25,381 nucleotides of DNA from an uncultured Erysipelotrichaceae bacterium (GTDB lineage: Bacteria > Bacillota_I > Bacilli_A > RF39 > UBA660). Position 1 is the first letter of the stretch. Each line of letters opens with the position of its first letter. Under the pieces are notes generated by a model, which worked only from the letters and a program-made list of their open reading frames with translations, made no database searches and had not been told where the DNA came from. The stretch lies in NCBI GenBank assembly GCA_902768065.1, contig CACXJP010000013.1, forward strand, positions 1 to 25,381, read 5' to 3'. The translations under genes and the position numbers were made by a program. Of the stretch, positions 8,743 to 17,715 are shown piece after piece.

Positions 8743-9912
8743 ATGGAGAATATAAGAAAGATATTTCTTACTAGAACAATTCCTGATATGCTATGTGATA
8801 TATATAGTATGCCTGAGATAAAATTTGTTTTTGATGATAAAACGTTAAATGAATTTGTGAACTATTTGGACAAGGATGATAATGATTCATATACTAATGG
8901 ACTTAAATCAATTAATTATTTAGCTAAAAATAGTAAAGATGCAAGAAAAGGTGTTGATGATACATATATTTATGTTACAGATTCTGATAGATTTTTTTAT
9001 CTTCTAAAAAAACTTGTAGAATTTTATTTTGAGGATTATAAACATAGTATAAATGCTTCATACAACTTTATTCGTAGTATTTGGCTACGTATGGGATCTA
9101 ATGATATAGTAAATGTTGAAAAATTTCTTGAGAGGCAAGCATTATTTATGAAGAATTATTCTGTATTACCTGAATATAGAGAAATAGATACTTTTGATAA
9201 TAAAGATGTTCTTGCATATTGTATCAAAGATAATGAAGATTGGTTTGAAACAAATAAAAATATTGTGTTTTCTATACGTAAATATTCAGATGATTTATTT
9301 GATATTCCAATTAATTATGAATTTCCTGCGATTCATTTTGGTATTTCTAAAGAAAATGGTAAACCAATTTGTTATATTTATGGGATACAATCACTTAATG
9401 GATTTCATAACGAAAATATAAAATATGATTTGCAGCCAATTAGAAAGAAATTTCGCAATAAATATGTATCTGCAGACTTTATAATCTGTTTGAGCTTATT
9501 TCTTGATTTTTTGTATGATATTGGTGTTAGAATAGTTGAGGTTCCTACATTACAAGTTTTTAATTATTCTTATCATGAGAATTTGTCATCTAATATTAAT
9601 AATAGTTTTGGCAGTTATACAGATGGTGATAAAAAAGAAATTGAAGAGTTATATGAGAATGGTGATAGAAGTGATAGAGTAGAAGATTATATGCATACTA
9701 AGAAAATGGTTTCAAGATTTGTAGATAAGCAAGATTCTATTAGTTATAATAAGACTGAACGTTTGATATATACTTTTTTGGAAATAATTAATAATAATGA
9801 TTCTATTAAACTTGTTAGTGAGCCATACGGTCAAAGTGATAATATGGTGATTAATCTATATGGAAAGACAAATGTTTTAAGTGATTATAATAAAAAGAAG
9901 AGAACAATATAA
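8743..9912 (+). CDS. Hypothetical protein, 389 residues
   Basis: I do not recognise this protein. The start ATG at 8743 has a good GGAGGAG site. The protein is soluble-looking and rich in Asp, Asn and Tyr, with no signal peptide and no obvious catalytic signature. Landmarks are FLTRTIPDMLCDIYSMPEIK at the N-terminus, FIRSIWLRMGSND (~residues 107-119), FPAIHFGISKENGKPICYIY (~195-214) which reads as a beta hairpin, and FIICLSLFLDFLYDIGVRIVE, a hydrophobic helix-strand unit that is probably buried rather than membrane-spanning. Residues ~290-389 are charged and variable. GISKENGKPICYIYGIQSLN weakly recalls a GNAT-like core but not enough to assign. It lies between tcdA and lexA as a single-gene unit with a terminator at each end. 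Confidence 0.72.
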   Translation: MENIRKIFLTRTIPDMLCDIYSMPEIKFVFDDKTLNEFVNYLDKDDNDSYTNGLKSINYLAKNSKDARKGVDDTYIYVTDSDRFFYLLKKLVEFYFEDYKHSINASYNFIRSIWLRMGSNDIVNVEKFLERQALFMKNYSVLPEYREIDTFDNKDVLAYCIKDNEDWFETNKNIVFSIRKYSDDLFDIPINYEFPAIHFGISKENGKPICYIYGIQSLNGFHNENIKYDLQPIRKKFRNKYVSADFIICLSLFLDFLYDIGVRIVEVPTLQVFNYSYHENLSSNINNSFGSYTDGDKKEIEELYENGDRSDRVEDYMHTKKMVSRFVDKQDSISYNKTERLIYTFLEIINNNDSIKLVSEPYGQSDNMVINLYGKTNVLSDYNKKKRTI

Positions 9913-9928
9913 TATGTTCTCTTCTTTT
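9893..9928. terminator. Bidirectional terminator between the 389-residue gene and lexA
   Basis: A perfect 14-bp stem, AAAAGAAGAGAACA (9893-9906) with TGTTCTCTTCTTTT (9915-9928), has an 8-base loop. The arms themselves end in T tracts on either strand. It contains the plus-strand stop (9910-9912) and abuts the lexA stop (9927-9929). Confidence 0.92.
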
Positions 9929-10544
9929 ATAATTTTCTGTATAAACCAATTACTTTTCCTAAAATTGTACATTCTTTTAAGATAATTGGATCCATAGTAT
10001 CATTTTCTGGTTGTAATCTGAAGTATCCGTTTTCTTTATAGAATGTTTTAACTGTTACTTCATTATTATCATTCATTGCAACAACTGTTTCACCATTTCT
10101 TGCAGTATTTCTTCTTTCTACAATTAATATATCTCCATCATAAATACCTACGTTGATCATTGATTCACCACTTACTTTTAATGTAAATGTTTCTTCTTTC
10201 GTAGATATTAAGTTTGCTGGTAATGAGAAATATTCATCTGGCATTTCTATTGCTTCAATAGGTGATCCAGCAGTTACTTTACCAAGTAATGGTACATCAA
10301 CAATTTTATCATTTGTTTCTAAATATTCATTTGGAACTAATATTTCCAAAGTTCTGTTTTTATTATCATCTTTCTTTATATATCCTTTTTCCTCAAGTTG
10401 TTTAAGATGAAAATGAATTGTTGCAGGAGATGATAGGTGAGCTTCTTCACCAATTTCTCTAACTGTAGGTGGATATCCATTTTTAGCAATCATTTTCTTT
10501 AATATATCCAAAATAAACTTTTGTTTTCCAGTTAATTTTTCCAT
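9927..10544 (-). CDS. lexA: SOS-response repressor LexA
   Basis: LexA dimers repress SOS genes; RecA filaments on ssDNA trigger self-cleavage. The 205-residue length is normal. The N-terminal winged helix includes TVREIGEEAHLSSPATIHFHLKQLEEKGYI (residues 27-56). The cleavage site is Ala92-Gly93 in KVTAGSP. The catalytic dyad is Ser128 (SGESM) and Lys166 (EVTVKTF), so the protein should be cleavable. The ATG at 10544 follows AAGGAAGTG on the minus strand. Its promoter carries LexA-type boxes, indicating autoregulation. The gene faces a small membrane-protein gene with further boxes, the same arrangement as lexA-yneA in B. subtilis. It ends in a strong bidirectional terminator. Confidence 0.97.
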   Translation of the reverse strand: MEKLTGKQKFILDILKKMIAKNGYPPTVREIGEEAHLSSPATIHFHLKQLEEKGYIKKDDNKNRTLEILVPNEYLETNDKIVDVPLLGKVTAGSPIEAIEMPDEYFSLPANLISTKEETFTLKVSGESMINVGIYDGDILIVERRNTARNGETVVAMNDNNEVTVKTFYKENGYFRLQPENDTMDPIILKECTILGKVIGLYRKL

Positions 10545-10566: not shown

Positions 10567-10595
10567 ATTTTATCATATATTTGTTCGTAAGTCAA
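10567..10595 (-). promoter_or_regulatory. lexA promoter
   Basis: Read on the minus strand: TTGACT (10590-10595), a 17-base spacer and TAAAAT (10567-10572), with TGa before it. The spacer holds a CGAACAAAT half-site, so LexA binding would cover the promoter. Confidence 0.85.
10574..10587 (-). promoter_or_regulatory. LexA box, degenerate, in the lexA promoter spacer
   Basis: On the minus strand this reads CGAACAAATATATG. The left half is perfect for the Gram-positive box (CGAAC-N4-GTTCG) and the right half is poor. It occupies the same promoter position as the good box of the divergent gene. Confidence 0.55.
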
Positions 10596-10606
10596 ACAAA
10601 CGTTTT
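10593..10606. promoter_or_regulatory. LexA box overlapping the lexA -35
   Basis: CAAACAAACGTTTT contains the symmetric core AAAC-N4-GTTT at 10594-10605. It deviates from GAAC-N4-GTTC by one base in each half and overlaps the -35 of lexA. Confidence 0.6.
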
Positions 10607-10626: not shown

Positions 10627-10640
10627 CGAACAAATGTTTT
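10627..10640. promoter_or_regulatory. LexA box upstream of the divergent small gene
   Basis: CGAACAAATGTTTT has core GAAC-N4-GTTT, one mismatch from GAAC-N4-GTTC. It lies ten bases upstream of the small gene's -35 and between the two divergent promoters. Confidence 0.8.
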
Positions 10641-10649
10641 AAAATATCA

Positions 10650-10678
10650 TTGACACGAACAAATATTCGGTATATACT
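10650..10678 (+). promoter_or_regulatory. SOS-controlled promoter of the 55-residue membrane protein
   Basis: Consensus TTGACA (10650-10655), a 17-base spacer and TATACT (10673-10678) are present. The spacer is nearly filled by a LexA box, so the promoter should be strong when LexA is cleaved and tightly closed otherwise. Confidence 0.9.
10656..10669. promoter_or_regulatory. LexA box inside the promoter spacer
   Basis: CGAACAAATATTCG matches CGAAC-N4-GTTCG at nine of ten specified bases. It starts immediately after the -35, directly blocking RNA polymerase when occupied. Confidence 0.88.
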
Positions 10679-10709
10679 TGAAATGTAAAAAAGAAAGGAG
10701 TGAATTAAA

Positions 10710-10877
10710 ATGATGAAAGCACAAAAAATTAGAGAAATTTTAAAGACGGGGATTGTTATAGGACTTATCTATATAATGTTTGTTCTATACTTATTATTTG
10801 TGAGTGATAGAGTTGAAAAATTAGAAAATAGATCTAGTGATGATCCAGTTTATTATTCATTAAAAATTGGTGATTAG
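10710..10877 (+). CDS. Small SOS-regulated membrane protein, YneA/SosA-like division-inhibitor candidate
   Basis: This 55-residue ORF is supported by a strong AAAGGAG site nine bases before ATG 10710 and by a consensus promoter with a LexA box. The basic N-terminus (MMKAQKIREILK) is followed by one membrane helix at about 13-31 (TGIVIGLIYIMFVLYLLF). An outer tail of about 24 residues follows, with VEKLENRSSDDPVYY. The predicted topology is N-in, C-out. It is transcribed away from lexA. In B. subtilis the same position holds yneA and in Staphylococcus sosA; both are SOS-induced single-pass proteins that delay division during DNA damage. It lacks the LysM domain of YneA and is shorter than SosA, so the function is inferred from context, regulation and topology, not sequence identity. 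polA follows after 37 bases with no terminator. Confidence 0.85.
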   Translation: MMKAQKIREILKTGIVIGLIYIMFVLYLLFVSDRVEKLENRSSDDPVYYSLKIGD

Positions 10878-10891
10878 AGTATATTTTATGT

Positions 10892-10897
10892 TATACT
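10892..10897 (+). promoter_or_regulatory. Extended -10 candidate promoter for polA
   Basis: TATACT is preceded by TGt, giving an extended -10. There is no convincing -35 (TTGGTG at 10867 is too far). It would give polA a basal, SOS-independent transcript. Confidence 0.5.
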
Positions 10898-10914: not shown

Positions 10915-13515
10915 ATGAAAAAGATTATATTAGTAGATGGTAATAATTTACTTTTTAGAAGTTTTTTTGCAACTGCATATCAAGGAACTATCATGAGAAA
11001 TTCTAAAGGTTTTCCAACAAATGCATTATATGGTTTTATTAATATGATGAATAGAATAATTAAGGAAGAAAATCCAAGTTATATAATGGTTGCATTTGAT
11101 AAGGGAAAAACCTTTAGACATGATAAATATGATGATTATAAGGCTGGTAGGGCTGCTATGCCGGATGAATTAAAGTTGCAGTTTCCTAAGGCTAAAGAAG
11201 TATTACAGGCAATGGGTATTAAGTATTATGAAATAGATAATTATGAAGCAGATGATATTATTGGTACTCTTGCTAAAAAGGTGGATGAAGAAGATGAATT
11301 TATTGCTACAATTGTAAGTAGTGATAAAGATTTATTACAATTAATTAGTGATGAAGTTGTAGTAAAATTATTAAAATCTAATGATCATATAATGATGACC
11401 AAAGATGAATTTAAAAATACATATGGTATTGATCCAATAAAGATGATTGATTTGAAAGCACTAATGGGTGATTCTAGTGATAATATTCCTGGAGTAAAAG
11501 GAATAGGGGAAAAGACAGCTATTAAGCTTCTTACTGAATATAAATCATTGGATGGATTATATGAACATATTGATGAAATAAAGGGTAAAACGAAAGAAAA
11601 ACTAGAGCAGGATAAAGATAATGCTTATATGAGTTATGACTTAGCTACTATATATAGAGAGGTTCCATTAGATTTTGATTTAGAAGATTGTATTTATAAC
11701 GGTTATAATGAAGTGAGATTTAAAGAAGAATTAGAAGAGTTAGAATTTTACTCACTATTAAAAAAGATAGATTTTAGTGGAGTAGAATCAAAAGAAGAGA
11801 AGAAAGAAGAAATTAGTATAAGTGATATTTCCGAATTAAAGAATAAAGAATTTGCTTTCTATTTAGAAACTAGAGGAAATATATATAGTAAAAGTGAAAT
11901 CTTAGGAATTAGTATATATGATGGGGAGAAGTATTATTATATTCCAGAAAATGAGATTGAAAAGTATGATTCTTTATTCAATAATAGTATTGAAAAGTAT
12001 ACTTATGATTTTAAAAAGTGTTTAGTTGTTCTAAATAAAAAAATTAATATAAAGAGTGTTAATTATGATGCAATGATAGCAATGTATTTACTTGATTATG
12101 TTGTTAAAGATGATATAAGCTTTGTTGCTAGAAGCTTTGGTTATAACATTACTGATTATGAGACATTCTTTGGTACTGAAAAAAGACCAAAATTATATGA
12201 TGAGGAAGAGCTAAAAAAACTTGGATGTTTAAAAGCAAAATTTATTTATGAGACAAGGAAAAAAGTTTTAGATAAATTAAAAGAAGATGGAGAAGAAGAA
12301 TTATTTAATAATATTGAAATGCCTTTAGCTAGTGTTTTAGCTGATATGGAGATTACTGGTATCAAGGTAGATAGAGGTTATTTAAAAGACGTTGAAGTTG
12401 ATTTAGATAAACAAATTAAAGTATTGGAAAAAGAAATATATGATTTAGCAGGTAAGGAGTTTAATATATTAAGTCCTTCACAACTTGGACCAATTCTATT
12501 TGTTGATTTAGGTATAAAATATCCAAAGAGAATTAAAGAAGGGCAAAGGTTTCTTACTAATAAAGAAATACTAGATAAAATAAGAGATAAGCATCCTATT
12601 GTTGAGAAAATATTGGAATATAGAACATTAACAAAATTATATTCTAATTATGCTGTTGGATTGGAAGCTGAAATAAGAGAAGATCAAAGAATTCATACAA
12701 TTTTTACTCAAACATTAACAAGAACAGGTAGATTATCAAGTGTTGAGCCTAATTTGCAAAATATTCCTGCAAGAAGTGAATATTCTAGATTAATTAGAAA
12801 AGCATTTATTCCTGATGAAGATTCTGTATTATTATCTAGTGACTATTCTCAAGTTGAACTTAGAATATTTGCTCATATGTCAAATGAGGAAAATCTTATA
12901 AAAGCTTTTATTGAAGAAAAAGATATTCATGCTAAAACTGCATCTGATATTTTTCATGTACCTATGGAAGAAGTAACTAAAGATATGAGAAGAAATGCTA
13001 AAGCTGTTAATTTTGGTATATTGTATGGTATTAGTGGGTTTGGATTATCTGAAGATTTAGGTATTGATATAAAAACTGCTAAGAACTTTATTGATGATTA
13101 TTTAGAGACTTATCCAGGTATTCTAAAATATATGGAAGAAGCTAAAGCAATGGCATATAAATATGGTTATGTAAAGACTTTAATGAATCGTAAGAGAGTT
13201 ATTGAAGAGTTAAATAATAGAAATTATATGATTAGAAGTAGTGGAGAAAGAATGGCATTAAATACACCAATTCAGGGTACTGCTGCTGATATTTTGAAAA
13301 AGGCTATGGTTGAAATATATGATGAATTCAATAAGCGTAATTTAAAGAGTAAAATGTTAATTCAAGTACACGATGAACTCGTATTTAATGTTTTAAATGA
13401 TGAACTAGAGGTTGTTAAAAAAATAGTTAAGGATAAAATGGAAAATACAATTAAATTATCAGTTCCTTTAAAAGTAGATATTGAAATTGGAAATAATTGG
13501 TATGAAGCAAAGTAG
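10915..13515 (+). CDS. polA: DNA polymerase I (5' nuclease, degenerate exo domain, polymerase)
   Basis: PolA fills repair gaps and removes RNA primers. ATG 10915 is chosen because AGGTGA precedes it; the ATG at 10900 has no such site. The protein has 866 residues. The N-terminal 5' nuclease runs over about 1-290 (ILVDGNNLLFRSFF, YEADDIIGTLA, SSDKDLLQL, GDSSDNIPGVKGIGEKTA). The middle domain is 3'-5' exonuclease-like, but FAFYLETRG replaces the FAFDTET motif and the last acidic motif is absent, so proofreading is probably lost, as in other Bacillota Pol I. Polymerase motifs are intact: DYSQVELR (Asp643), RRNAKAVNFGILYG (692-705) and VHDE (Asp820). It lies downstream of the SOS gene and overlaps the fpg ribosome binding site at its stop, forming polA-fpg as in B. 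subtilis polA-mutM. Confidence 0.97.
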   Translation: MKKIILVDGNNLLFRSFFATAYQGTIMRNSKGFPTNALYGFINMMNRIIKEENPSYIMVAFDKGKTFRHDKYDDYKAGRAAMPDELKLQFPKAKEVLQAMGIKYYEIDNYEADDIIGTLAKKVDEEDEFIATIVSSDKDLLQLISDEVVVKLLKSNDHIMMTKDEFKNTYGIDPIKMIDLKALMGDSSDNIPGVKGIGEKTAIKLLTEYKSLDGLYEHIDEIKGKTKEKLEQDKDNAYMSYDLATIYREVPLDFDLEDCIYNGYNEVRFKEELEELEFYSLLKKIDFSGVESKEEKKEEISISDISELKNKEFAFYLETRGNIYSKSEILGISIYDGEKYYYIPENEIEKYDSLFNNSIEKYTYDFKKCLVVLNKKINIKSVNYDAMIAMYLLDYVVKDDISFVARSFGYNITDYETFFGTEKRPKLYDEEELKKLGCLKAKFIYETRKKVLDKLKEDGEEELFNNIEMPLASVLADMEITGIKVDRGYLKDVEVDLDKQIKVLEKEIYDLAGKEFNILSPSQLGPILFVDLGIKYPKRIKEGQRFLTNKEILDKIRDKHPIVEKILEYRTLTKLYSNYAVGLEAEIREDQRIHTIFTQTLTRTGRLSSVEPNLQNIPARSEYSRLIRKAFIPDEDSVLLSSDYSQVELRIFAHMSNEENLIKAFIEEKDIHAKTASDIFHVPMEEVTKDMRRNAKAVNFGILYGISGFGLSEDLGIDIKTAKNFIDDYLETYPGILKYMEEAKAMAYKYGYVKTLMNRKRVIEELNNRNYMIRSSGERMALNTPIQGTAADILKKAMVEIYDEFNKRNLKSKMLIQVHDELVFNVLNDELEVVKKIVKDKMENTIKLSVPLKVDIEIGNNWYEAK

Positions 13516-16184: not shown

Positions 16185-16242
16185 AACATTCATATGGGAT
16201 GATGTGACCTCATTAAATCAGTAAAAAAGGAAGTTGATTTTA

Positions 16243-17715
16243 ATGGCTAAGACGTTAAGTAGAAGTTTATTTTTGTTTATATTATTATTGTTACTATTAT
16301 TTATTCCAATGAATGTTTTTGCTCAGGATAATAATAGTGATTTAGATTTAGGCGATACAAATGATAGTACCGTTGTTTTAGAATGTGAAGATTTAACTAA
16401 TCTTCAAGATGATTTGCTTCTACAAAATCAATTAGATGATGGTAACGTTTTACTATTAAATGATAGTGTTGATGAGACTAATGTTGATTCTGAACTTGAA
16501 ACAATAAAGAATATAATTGGTGATAGTATCAATGTTGGATTGTTAGAAAGTCAGGCTTATGATTACGATGAATCTAATAAGAGTGTTTTAAACACTGAGG
16601 TTGAAAATGAAATTAAGAAAAGAATGGTTGAAAATAATTTTGATTATGATTCACTTGGATATGATTTTGCTGCAGACTTTGTTAGATATAGTGATTTTGA
16701 TTATACAGGTATAATTAGGATTTTTCATAATTCTTTATATTTAGATCAAATATCACTTTTTGTTGTATATCTAAATACAAATGAACATACTGATGATGAA
16801 CAAGCATATGTAGATAATTTTATTGATAATAACCAATTTGTGTTTGAAAATGAATTCCCTTTAGAAGAATACTTTGAGGATGGTTATGATTTGGAAGAGA
16901 GAGTTAATTCTTTTGCAAGTCAATATGATATTGAATGTGCATCATTGACTCCATATCATATTGGTGGAACAAGCGACTTTCCATTTGCATGTTTTTATAA
17001 TCATAAATATTATGGTAAATTAATTGCAACTTTAAATGAAAGAATCAAAGTTAAGGTACCAAGTAATATAACTAATACAAATGATTATATTCTTAACAAA
17101 GTTAAAGAGTTCTTTATAAATAAATACAACGAAATGGGTATATCTGATTTTATTGATAATGATACTGAATTTTATTATAGTGGTAATTTTGTTTTTGCTA
17201 GAAGCTCAACTTATGGTTATGATTTTAAGGTAGGAACTTTTGTTGCTGATATTGTTAATGTGCCTGTAGTTAATCCGGAACCAAATCATGATGAATCAAA
17301 TTATTCTAATGATAGTAGTAATTCAAACTCAAATTCTAATTATAATAATTATAGAAGAAACTATAGCTATTCTAGAACATACTATACATACTATGATGAG
17401 GATAGTAATTCTCAGACTGGTAGTACATTAGGGTCTTCTGATACTGTAATTGATATAAGTGATATTATTAAAAGTGATACTAAGAAGGTAAATACAATAA
17501 AAAATAGTAAGAAAACAAATAAAAAAAGTAGTTCTAAGGTTAATAATAATAAAACTGATAGTAAGGATATAGAAGAGAAAAAAGATGAGACTACTGAAAA
17601 GATGAGTGCTACAAAAATATTATTTATAGTTTTAGCAGGTGTTTCATTAGCTGGTATTGTAATTGCAATAATTAATAAGATACTTATAAATAGCGAATCT
17701 AGTATTGATGTATAA
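16243..17715 (+). CDS. Secreted, C-terminally membrane-anchored surface protein
   Basis: I recognise the architecture but not the family. ATG 16243 follows AAAAGGAAG; the upstream TTG 16234 is not used. This gives 490 residues. A signal peptide (MAKTLSRSLFLFILLLLLLF) ends with a likely cleavage at NVFA-QD near residue 28. A long acidic extracellular region follows, with alpha/beta segments such as KRMVENNFDYDSLGYDFAAD and the Cys-containing YDIECASLTPYHIGG and DFPFACFYN. Residues ~350-390 are an Asn/Ser/Tyr-rich linker, followed by a Lys/Ser/Asn-rich stretch (KNSKKTNKKSSSKVNNNKTD). A terminal membrane helix (ILFIVLAGVSLAGIVIAIIN) precedes a short tail. No LPxTG sortase motif is present. The linker may span the wall and display the N-terminal domain. 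It is a single-gene unit with its own promoter and terminator. Confidence 0.8.
   Translation: MAKTLSRSLFLFILLLLLLFIPMNVFAQDNNSDLDLGDTNDSTVVLECEDLTNLQDDLLLQNQLDDGNVLLLNDSVDETNVDSELETIKNIIGDSINVGLLESQAYDYDESNKSVLNTEVENEIKKRMVENNFDYDSLGYDFAADFVRYSDFDYTGIIRIFHNSLYLDQISLFVVYLNTNEHTDDEQAYVDNFIDNNQFVFENEFPLEEYFEDGYDLEERVNSFASQYDIECASLTPYHIGGTSDFPFACFYNHKYYGKLIATLNERIKVKVPSNITNTNDYILNKVKEFFINKYNEMGISDFIDNDTEFYYSGNFVFARSSTYGYDFKVGTFVADIVNVPVVNPEPNHDESNYSNDSSNSNSNSNYNNYRRNYSYSRTYYTYYDEDSNSQTGSTLGSSDTVIDISDIIKSDTKKVNTIKNSKKTNKKSSSKVNNNKTDSKDIEEKKDETTEKMSATKILFIVLAGVSLAGIVIAIINKILINSESSIDV

Follow-up and report, generated by a model that had tools for sequence, protein, structure and literature searches.

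According to the SosA paper (PMC6851548), the characterised Gram-positive genes for bitopic membrane proteins at the place beside lexA, as far as that paper lists them, delay division. In SosA of Staphylococcus aureus itself, the residues just outside the membrane are essential (PMC6851548). As described for YneA of Bacillus subtilis (PMC13396833), this protein reaches the division site via its helix, binds TM7 of FtsW and needs its LysM domain to inhibit; without LysM, the helix alone still goes to midcell and does not block division. The helix residues K5, E6, F10, V11 and F14 are required for midcell localisation, K5 and F14 also for activity (PMC13396833). The same authors report low-confidence models that put SosA, ChiZ and SidA on FtsW too, with SidA on the other side of TM7, and they suggest that the extended helix of SosA may disturb the catalytic cavity. 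How an FtsW-bound helix stops septal wall synthesis is stated there as an open question for YneA (PMC13396833, 2026). SidA of Caulobacter crescentus is an inner-membrane protein of 29 residues which stops division through FtsW (PMC4211646). In a study of the gut SOS meta-regulon, the COGs of Gram-positive SOS division inhibitors were scattered across several categories, and the passages of that study considered here contain no description of the family presented below (PMC3998124).

The locus described here comes from a lineage which we take to be placed in GTDB order RF39. In the window, i.e. the whole stretch of 25,381 nucleotides that was analysed, the SOS repressor gene lexA lies on the minus strand (9927..10544; TIGR00498, 225 bits). 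Facing it on the plus strand is a candidate SOS checkpoint protein gene (P0001, 10710..10877) with 55 codons for a single-helix membrane protein. As claimed in a preliminary description, the gene is preceded by a promoter TTGACA-17-TATACT (10650..10678, plus strand) with a LexA (SOS) box, CGAACAAATATTCG, in its spacer (10656..10669) and a second LexA box, CGAACAAATGTTTT, upstream (10627..10640). The exact promoter string occurs once in the whole window, compared to a mean of 0.01 in shuffled sequences. Another box, CAAACAAACGTTTT (10593..10606), is found on the lexA side and overlaps a -35 element of lexA (TTGACT, minus strand, from 10595). The ribosome-binding site AAAGGAG (10694..10700, plus strand) is followed by the ATG at 10710, and both this site and the 55-residue ORF with its basic N-terminus, one helix and outer tail agree with the preliminary description by translation and prediction.

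The downstream neighbour on the plus strand is polA, encoding DNA polymerase I (10915..13515, likely start 10915; PRK05755, 998 bits), which probably lies outside the function of the 55-aa protein. A TATACT element is present just 5' of polA at 10892-10897, and similar elements were seen by eye before polA in L017, L024, L027, L028 and L035, all of them loci without the small gene. This suggests that polA has its own promoter. The ftsQ-ftsA-ftsZ genes reported for the window were recovered as well: FtsA and FtsZ match NCBIfam models, as does polA, and ftsQ is assigned from a POTRA_1 domain match. Three long ORFs of the window, 8743-9912, 627-1778 and 16234-17715 (389, 383 and 493 aa), gave no Pfam match at E≤0.001; the last one resembles, by eye, a membrane-anchored, S/N-rich surface protein.

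Next, the conservation of the small ORF was analysed at 80 related lexA loci, obtained by a scan with the LexA of the window. The genomes behind them are nearly all metagenome-assembled and labelled as Bacilli, Bacillales, Erysipelotrichaceae, Tenericutes, Candidatus Onthousia and Candidatus Scybalousia, among others. At 71 of the 80 loci, a single-helix ORF of 46-62 aa faces lexA, and all 71 ORFs have an ATG start and a Shine-Dalgarno match of at least four bases. A search for frame-disrupting changes retrieved a broken copy at one of the 80 loci (L061), situated upstream of lexA, in which the promoter and the box are still recognisable, the usual ATG is gone and the frame is broken. At eight further loci (L017, L024, L027, L028, L035, L076, L079 and L080) no helix-bearing ORF of at least 40 aa was found near lexA. 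There, polA is the next ORF in seven cases and another gene in L080, and all eight have kept, by eye, a lexA-side TGTCAAACA...TGTTT box. Since the small gene is absent or decayed at 9 of the 80 loci, some lineages manage without it.

Purifying selection in the relatives was confirmed as well. In 20 disjoint pairs with a protein identity of at least 60%, the pooled pN/pS is 0.31 in frame, compared with 0.78 and 2.55 when the two shifted frames are read, and the numbers of changes at codon positions 1, 2 and 3 are 194, 65 and 293, respectively. This set was used instead of a wider one (pS<0.65), the median pN/pS of which (0.83) is uninformative because distant pairs are saturated. Among 24 chosen pairs, indels in multiples of three make up 9 of the 11 inside the ORF versus 11 of the 69 outside. 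Together, these patterns indicate that the amino acids are kept, beyond a mere open frame. The 55-aa ORF is a real gene under purifying selection.

Based on the alignment of the 72 members (the 71 loci and the window), the protein can be divided into three parts, all encoded on the plus strand. The basic N-terminus (residues 1-13, 10710..10748), predicted to be cytoplasmic, holds the nearly invariant K12; the transmembrane helix (approximately residues 14-32, 10749..10805) holds Y21, which is invariant; and a tail of about 23 residues follows, starting with the membrane-proximal outer motif R34-V-E-K-L38-E39 (10809..10826). K12, R34 and L38 are each conserved in at least 90% of the members. 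In the family core, the helix thus carries K-x8-Y, and R-[VIMFL]-x-x-[LI]-[EDN] follows immediately beyond the membrane. This latter motif is present in 71 of the 72 members versus 3.5% of shuffled tails, with 18-26 residues after the motif arginine. Compared with the C-side, the N-side carries more positive charge in 68 of the 72 members, and by this charge rule the N-terminus is predicted to be inside and the C-terminus outside. AlphaFold2, run on the alignment, gives a single straight helix for residues 3-44, poorly supported past residue 40 (block-mean pLDDT of 95, 97 and 86 for residues 11-20, 21-30 and 31-40, and below 60 beyond). The helix extends past the membrane, where the conserved turn lies. 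With a periodicity of 100 degrees, no significant conservation of one helix face was observed (p 0.089 for helix and turn, 0.052 for the helix alone).

At E≤0.01, each matching Pfam or PHROGs family hits at most two of the 72 members: two Pfam families each match one member, and phrog_28320 matches one at 8.4e-05, with two other PHROGs being weaker. LysM was not among the Pfam matches of the 72 members at this threshold, in line with the preliminary claim of an SOS-controlled, lexA-facing ORF without this domain. The NCBIfam models gave no match to the 55-aa protein of the window, and the PDB gave no relative at E≤0.1, with none below E 0.4 and two rows at chance level up to E 1. A search of the protein collection retrieved 127 relatives at E≤0.1. 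Among the best 120 of these, five have a source name, in all cases ‘hypothetical protein’, and a sixth has a placeholder. The gene was supposed to be too short for gene calling and hence missing from most annotations of relatives. The former does not hold, as 55 codons are callable and proteins of the family had already been predicted in the collection; of the latter, it stands that they are rarely named, while they are often predicted.

The LexA boxes are conserved along with the ORF. A box with at most two mismatches is found 5' of the start in 70 of the 72 ORFs, where mononucleotide shuffles would give 0.87. The promoters match at least 10 of the 12 consensus bases in 71 of the 72 cases, and the best promoter match contains a box with at most two mismatches in 69 and with at most three in all 72, the three-mismatch boxes being those of L026, L034 and L066. 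In all 12 genomes inspected for it, a related box lies just upstream of the recA promoter, including three genomes without the small gene, so the LexA operator can be regarded as real in this group. Induction of the 55-aa protein by DNA damage would be expected from this arrangement. In L044, L069 and L074, the distance from lexA to the small ORF is about 60 nt longer (ORF start at 190-195), and two boxes are present, near positions 115 and 145.

A strict box pattern, used to look for other SOS targets, did not stand out from its reversed control, with 6 versus 14 matches in four genomes with the small gene and 13 versus 25 in seven genomes without it; no regulon is proposed. One of the 6 matches is the small gene's own box (G001), and in the other three genomes the gene's own box falls outside the strict pattern. 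Of the remaining strict-pattern matches, two were inspected: one lies just 3' of a GNAT-like gene in L241, and the other, in L243, has an scpB-like gene on one side and a 150-aa ORF on the other (gene names by eye).

A gene beside lexA, a LexA operator and a predicted single helix are three traits of the SosA/YneA/ChiZ/DivS group that are found here. Like the present family, SosA is encoded beside lexA, is SOS-controlled, has one helix and an outer C-terminus without LysM, and carries a conserved stretch just outside the membrane (PMC6851548). SosA is longer (77 aa versus 46-62 aa), and, compared by description, the outer residues tested in it are at positions 40/41 (Y, E) and 44/45 (D, H) (PMC6851548), while the present family has R-x-x-x-L-[ED] directly at the membrane. 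ChiZ and DivS of Actinobacteria are also SOS-regulated bitopic inhibitors encoded near lexA; by description, they differ in coming from another phylum, and ChiZ has LysM (PMC6851548). SidA shares with the family that it is a small, LexA-controlled membrane protein and demonstrates that a tiny size can suffice, but it comes from a Proteobacterium and, by description, is even shorter (PMC4211646). With its 29 aa, SidA also rules out calling the 55-aa protein the smallest known SOS division inhibitor (PMC4211646).

YneA is likewise LexA-controlled, with one helix, an outer C-terminus and a gene near lexA (PMC13396833), and the spacing of its K5 and F14 equals that of K12 and Y21 in the 55-aa protein. 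However, the 55-aa protein is half as long, lacks LysM and does not match NF010723. This model, with which B. subtilis YneA scores 93.8 bits, gave no match to the family members P0001, P0005, P0008 and P0010, and it exceeded its cut-off in one of the 295 genomes of a phylum sample, in a frame of 522 residues. In the 11 of 19 genomes for which the place of lexA was listed, no YneA-profile match was located on the lexA contig. Homology to YneA is not supported, the likeness of the helices being no better than that of control N-terminal helices on 12- and 20-residue cores. Over 99 control N-terminal segments, which include some soluble N-termini, the best rank of YneA was 22 for the 12-residue core and 24 for the 20-residue core, while for 28 residues it was 5. 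Rank 5 was obtained with B. spizizenii YneA in a register that leaves the lysines unpaired. The K-9-[FY] spacing itself, striking by eye, occurs in 20 of the 99 controls and serves as a lead only. The earlier proposal that the protein shrank from a LysM-bearing form was not borne out either: among the ORFs listed beside lexA, none with a helix plus LysM stood out by eye. As the YneA likeness does not exceed the controls, neither homology nor shrinkage is claimed.

Because of its position, control and architecture, we consider it rather likely that the 55-aa protein, repressed by LexA, acts as a checkpoint protein in the manner of SosA, YneA or SidA, and the family is probably a brake on cell division. 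We infer division inhibition by analogy with these proteins, and by the same analogy FtsW is the best guess for the target. Upon DNA damage, LexA would be cleaved and the promoter freed, its spacer no longer being covered by LexA. The small bitopic protein would then be made, with its N-terminus inside and its short tail outside. Docking of the helix, which carries the invariant tyrosine, and of the R-x-x-x-L-[ED] turn just outside the membrane onto a membrane-embedded part of the division synthase might delay septum synthesis until repair. Removal of the protein could be carried out by a CtpA-type protease, which was found in 12 of 12 related genomes tested, nine of them with the small gene.

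RecA is present in the nine related genomes with the small gene that were tested for it. FtsW exceeds its cut-off in 15 of 15 related genomes with the small gene, with the matched frame of G623 holding a stop; where no intact copy of the gene is present, the cut-off is exceeded in 6 of 9 genomes. An FtsW above the cut-off is therefore missing in 3 of 9 versus 0 of 15 (hypergeometric 0.04), a hint that its absence tracks the absence of the small gene in genomes that are related to each other and for which completeness was not established. The three genomes, G011, G619 and G621 (loci L024, L027 and L079), have only lower-scoring SEDS proteins, with no FtsW above the TIGR02614 cut-off, and all three are without the small gene at lexA.

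In its most specific form, the proposal is that of an SOS division inhibitor without LysM, new and minimal, in bacteria of the Gram-positive type. A protein of about 50 residues would block the SEDS polymerase FtsW or its partners by means of its single helix, the R-x-x-x-L-[ED] turn conserved next to the membrane, and its short tail; its gene is widely retained opposite lexA in an order of uncultured gut bacteria. We put this forward tentatively, as less likely than not. The strongest counter-argument comes from YneA, the helix of which does not inhibit without LysM; by this argument, a protein lacking LysM would either work in another way or leave division unaffected. SosA and SidA answer this objection by analogy only.

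Several other explanations can be considered. The helix and the juxtamembrane conservation would fit any bitopic regulator, and the target is not named by the sequence; the protein might thus be a LexA-controlled membrane regulator of something else, such as a protease, a transporter or an envelope-stress sensor, made after damage. We regard such a regulator as unlikely, albeit worth keeping in mind, given that the bitopic genes characterised beside lexA in Gram-positives, as listed in the SosA paper, delay division (PMC6851548). An SOS-induced membrane-depolarising peptide, acting on the bilayer instead of the divisome and leading to dormancy or persistence, seems quite improbable. Its known precedent is TisB of Escherichia coli, which is a small, LexA-controlled membrane peptide as well, and the 55-aa protein is equally small and hydrophobic, with one helix and a LexA operator. 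TisB is a type I toxin with an antisense RNA, and Rfam, which covers described families and would miss a new antisense RNA, gave no match in the window at gathering thresholds. Neither the tisB gene nor the sidA gene is known to lie beside lexA. The conserved Y21, R34, L38 and E/D39 and the retained outer tail also suggest a protein contact, not a generic pore.

A leader or coupling ORF that ties polA translation to the SOS response was considered because 37 nt separate the end of the ORF from the likely start of polA, no terminator-like site was found between the two, and polA lies downstream in 67 of the 71 assessable members. This seems very improbable, as the amino acids themselves are conserved, and the lexA-facing ORF is kept in the four members (L042, L046, L056 and L068) without polA found within about 600 nt; in L007, L009, L014 and L015, the polA start is about 150-160 nt away. 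For a chance ORF between two divergent promoters, which a short frame in AT-rich DNA might suggest, the probability is close to nil: it is refuted by the conservation, and the selection and indel patterns are also against it.

As a checkpoint candidate, the uncharacterised, conserved, lexA-facing minimal membrane protein represents a new family of an already known kind, set apart from SosA and SidA by description. A search of the literature on LexA or SOS in RF39/Faecimonas, and on LexA-linked division inhibitors in Mycoplasmatota, retrieved nothing relevant, and wider searches led to the known inhibitors, among other papers. With this family, a large gut lineage, most of it uncultured, gains a candidate SOS checkpoint protein. 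Its members could also serve as naturally minimal constructs for asking how an FtsW-bound helix stops septal wall synthesis: the YneA helix alone does not inhibit, and here there is nothing but a short tail apart from the helix and the turn. If the proposal is true, tiny FtsW-directed brakes arose more than once, this one standing beside SidA and SosA, and the wall-binding domain would be dispensable. The value of the finding is reduced by the 29-residue SidA, which already shows a tiny inhibitor in another phylum (PMC4211646).

To describe the spread of the family, a profile of the 72 proteins was searched against whole genomes, blind to the position of lexA; as these genomes partly overlap those behind the profile, the search is not fully independent. 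Nine genomes whose lexA locus has the small gene gave exactly one match each, and none was obtained in the genomes of L017, L024 and L028, which have no small gene at lexA. A class sample of 296 genomes yielded matches in 30 at E≤0.01; of the 30 corresponding loci (L081-L110), 17 hold lexA. From an order sample of 241 genomes, 84 matches were obtained in 78 of them, six genomes having two each. Among the matches with the place of lexA listed, at least 49 face lexA by coordinates and 13 do not, two of the latter being at E<0.001 (G280 and G534). Of the other 22, eight are among the 23 loci L191-L213, all of which hold lexA, which leaves 14. At E≤1e-6, 38 order-sample matches remain; 29 face lexA by coordinates, eight more are in short loci that hold lexA, and one is left without assignment.

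The reading of 54 lexA loci of the class sample revealed 37 with a LexA at least 57% identical to that of the window, and a lexA-facing single-helix ORF was recognised in 27 of these, leaving out the ambiguous L115. In the most distant of these ORFs (e.g., L114, L149, L153 and L154), the full motif is no longer present. At three lexA loci from genomes of 2.7-3.0 Mb (L112, L121 and L127), the small ORF that faces lexA, again with a single helix and SOS boxes, is a different one. These ORFs, 57 aa long in L121, have similar C-termini, IIPFLEVxAYQ plus two residues, and can be considered an unrelated-looking candidate of the same kind.
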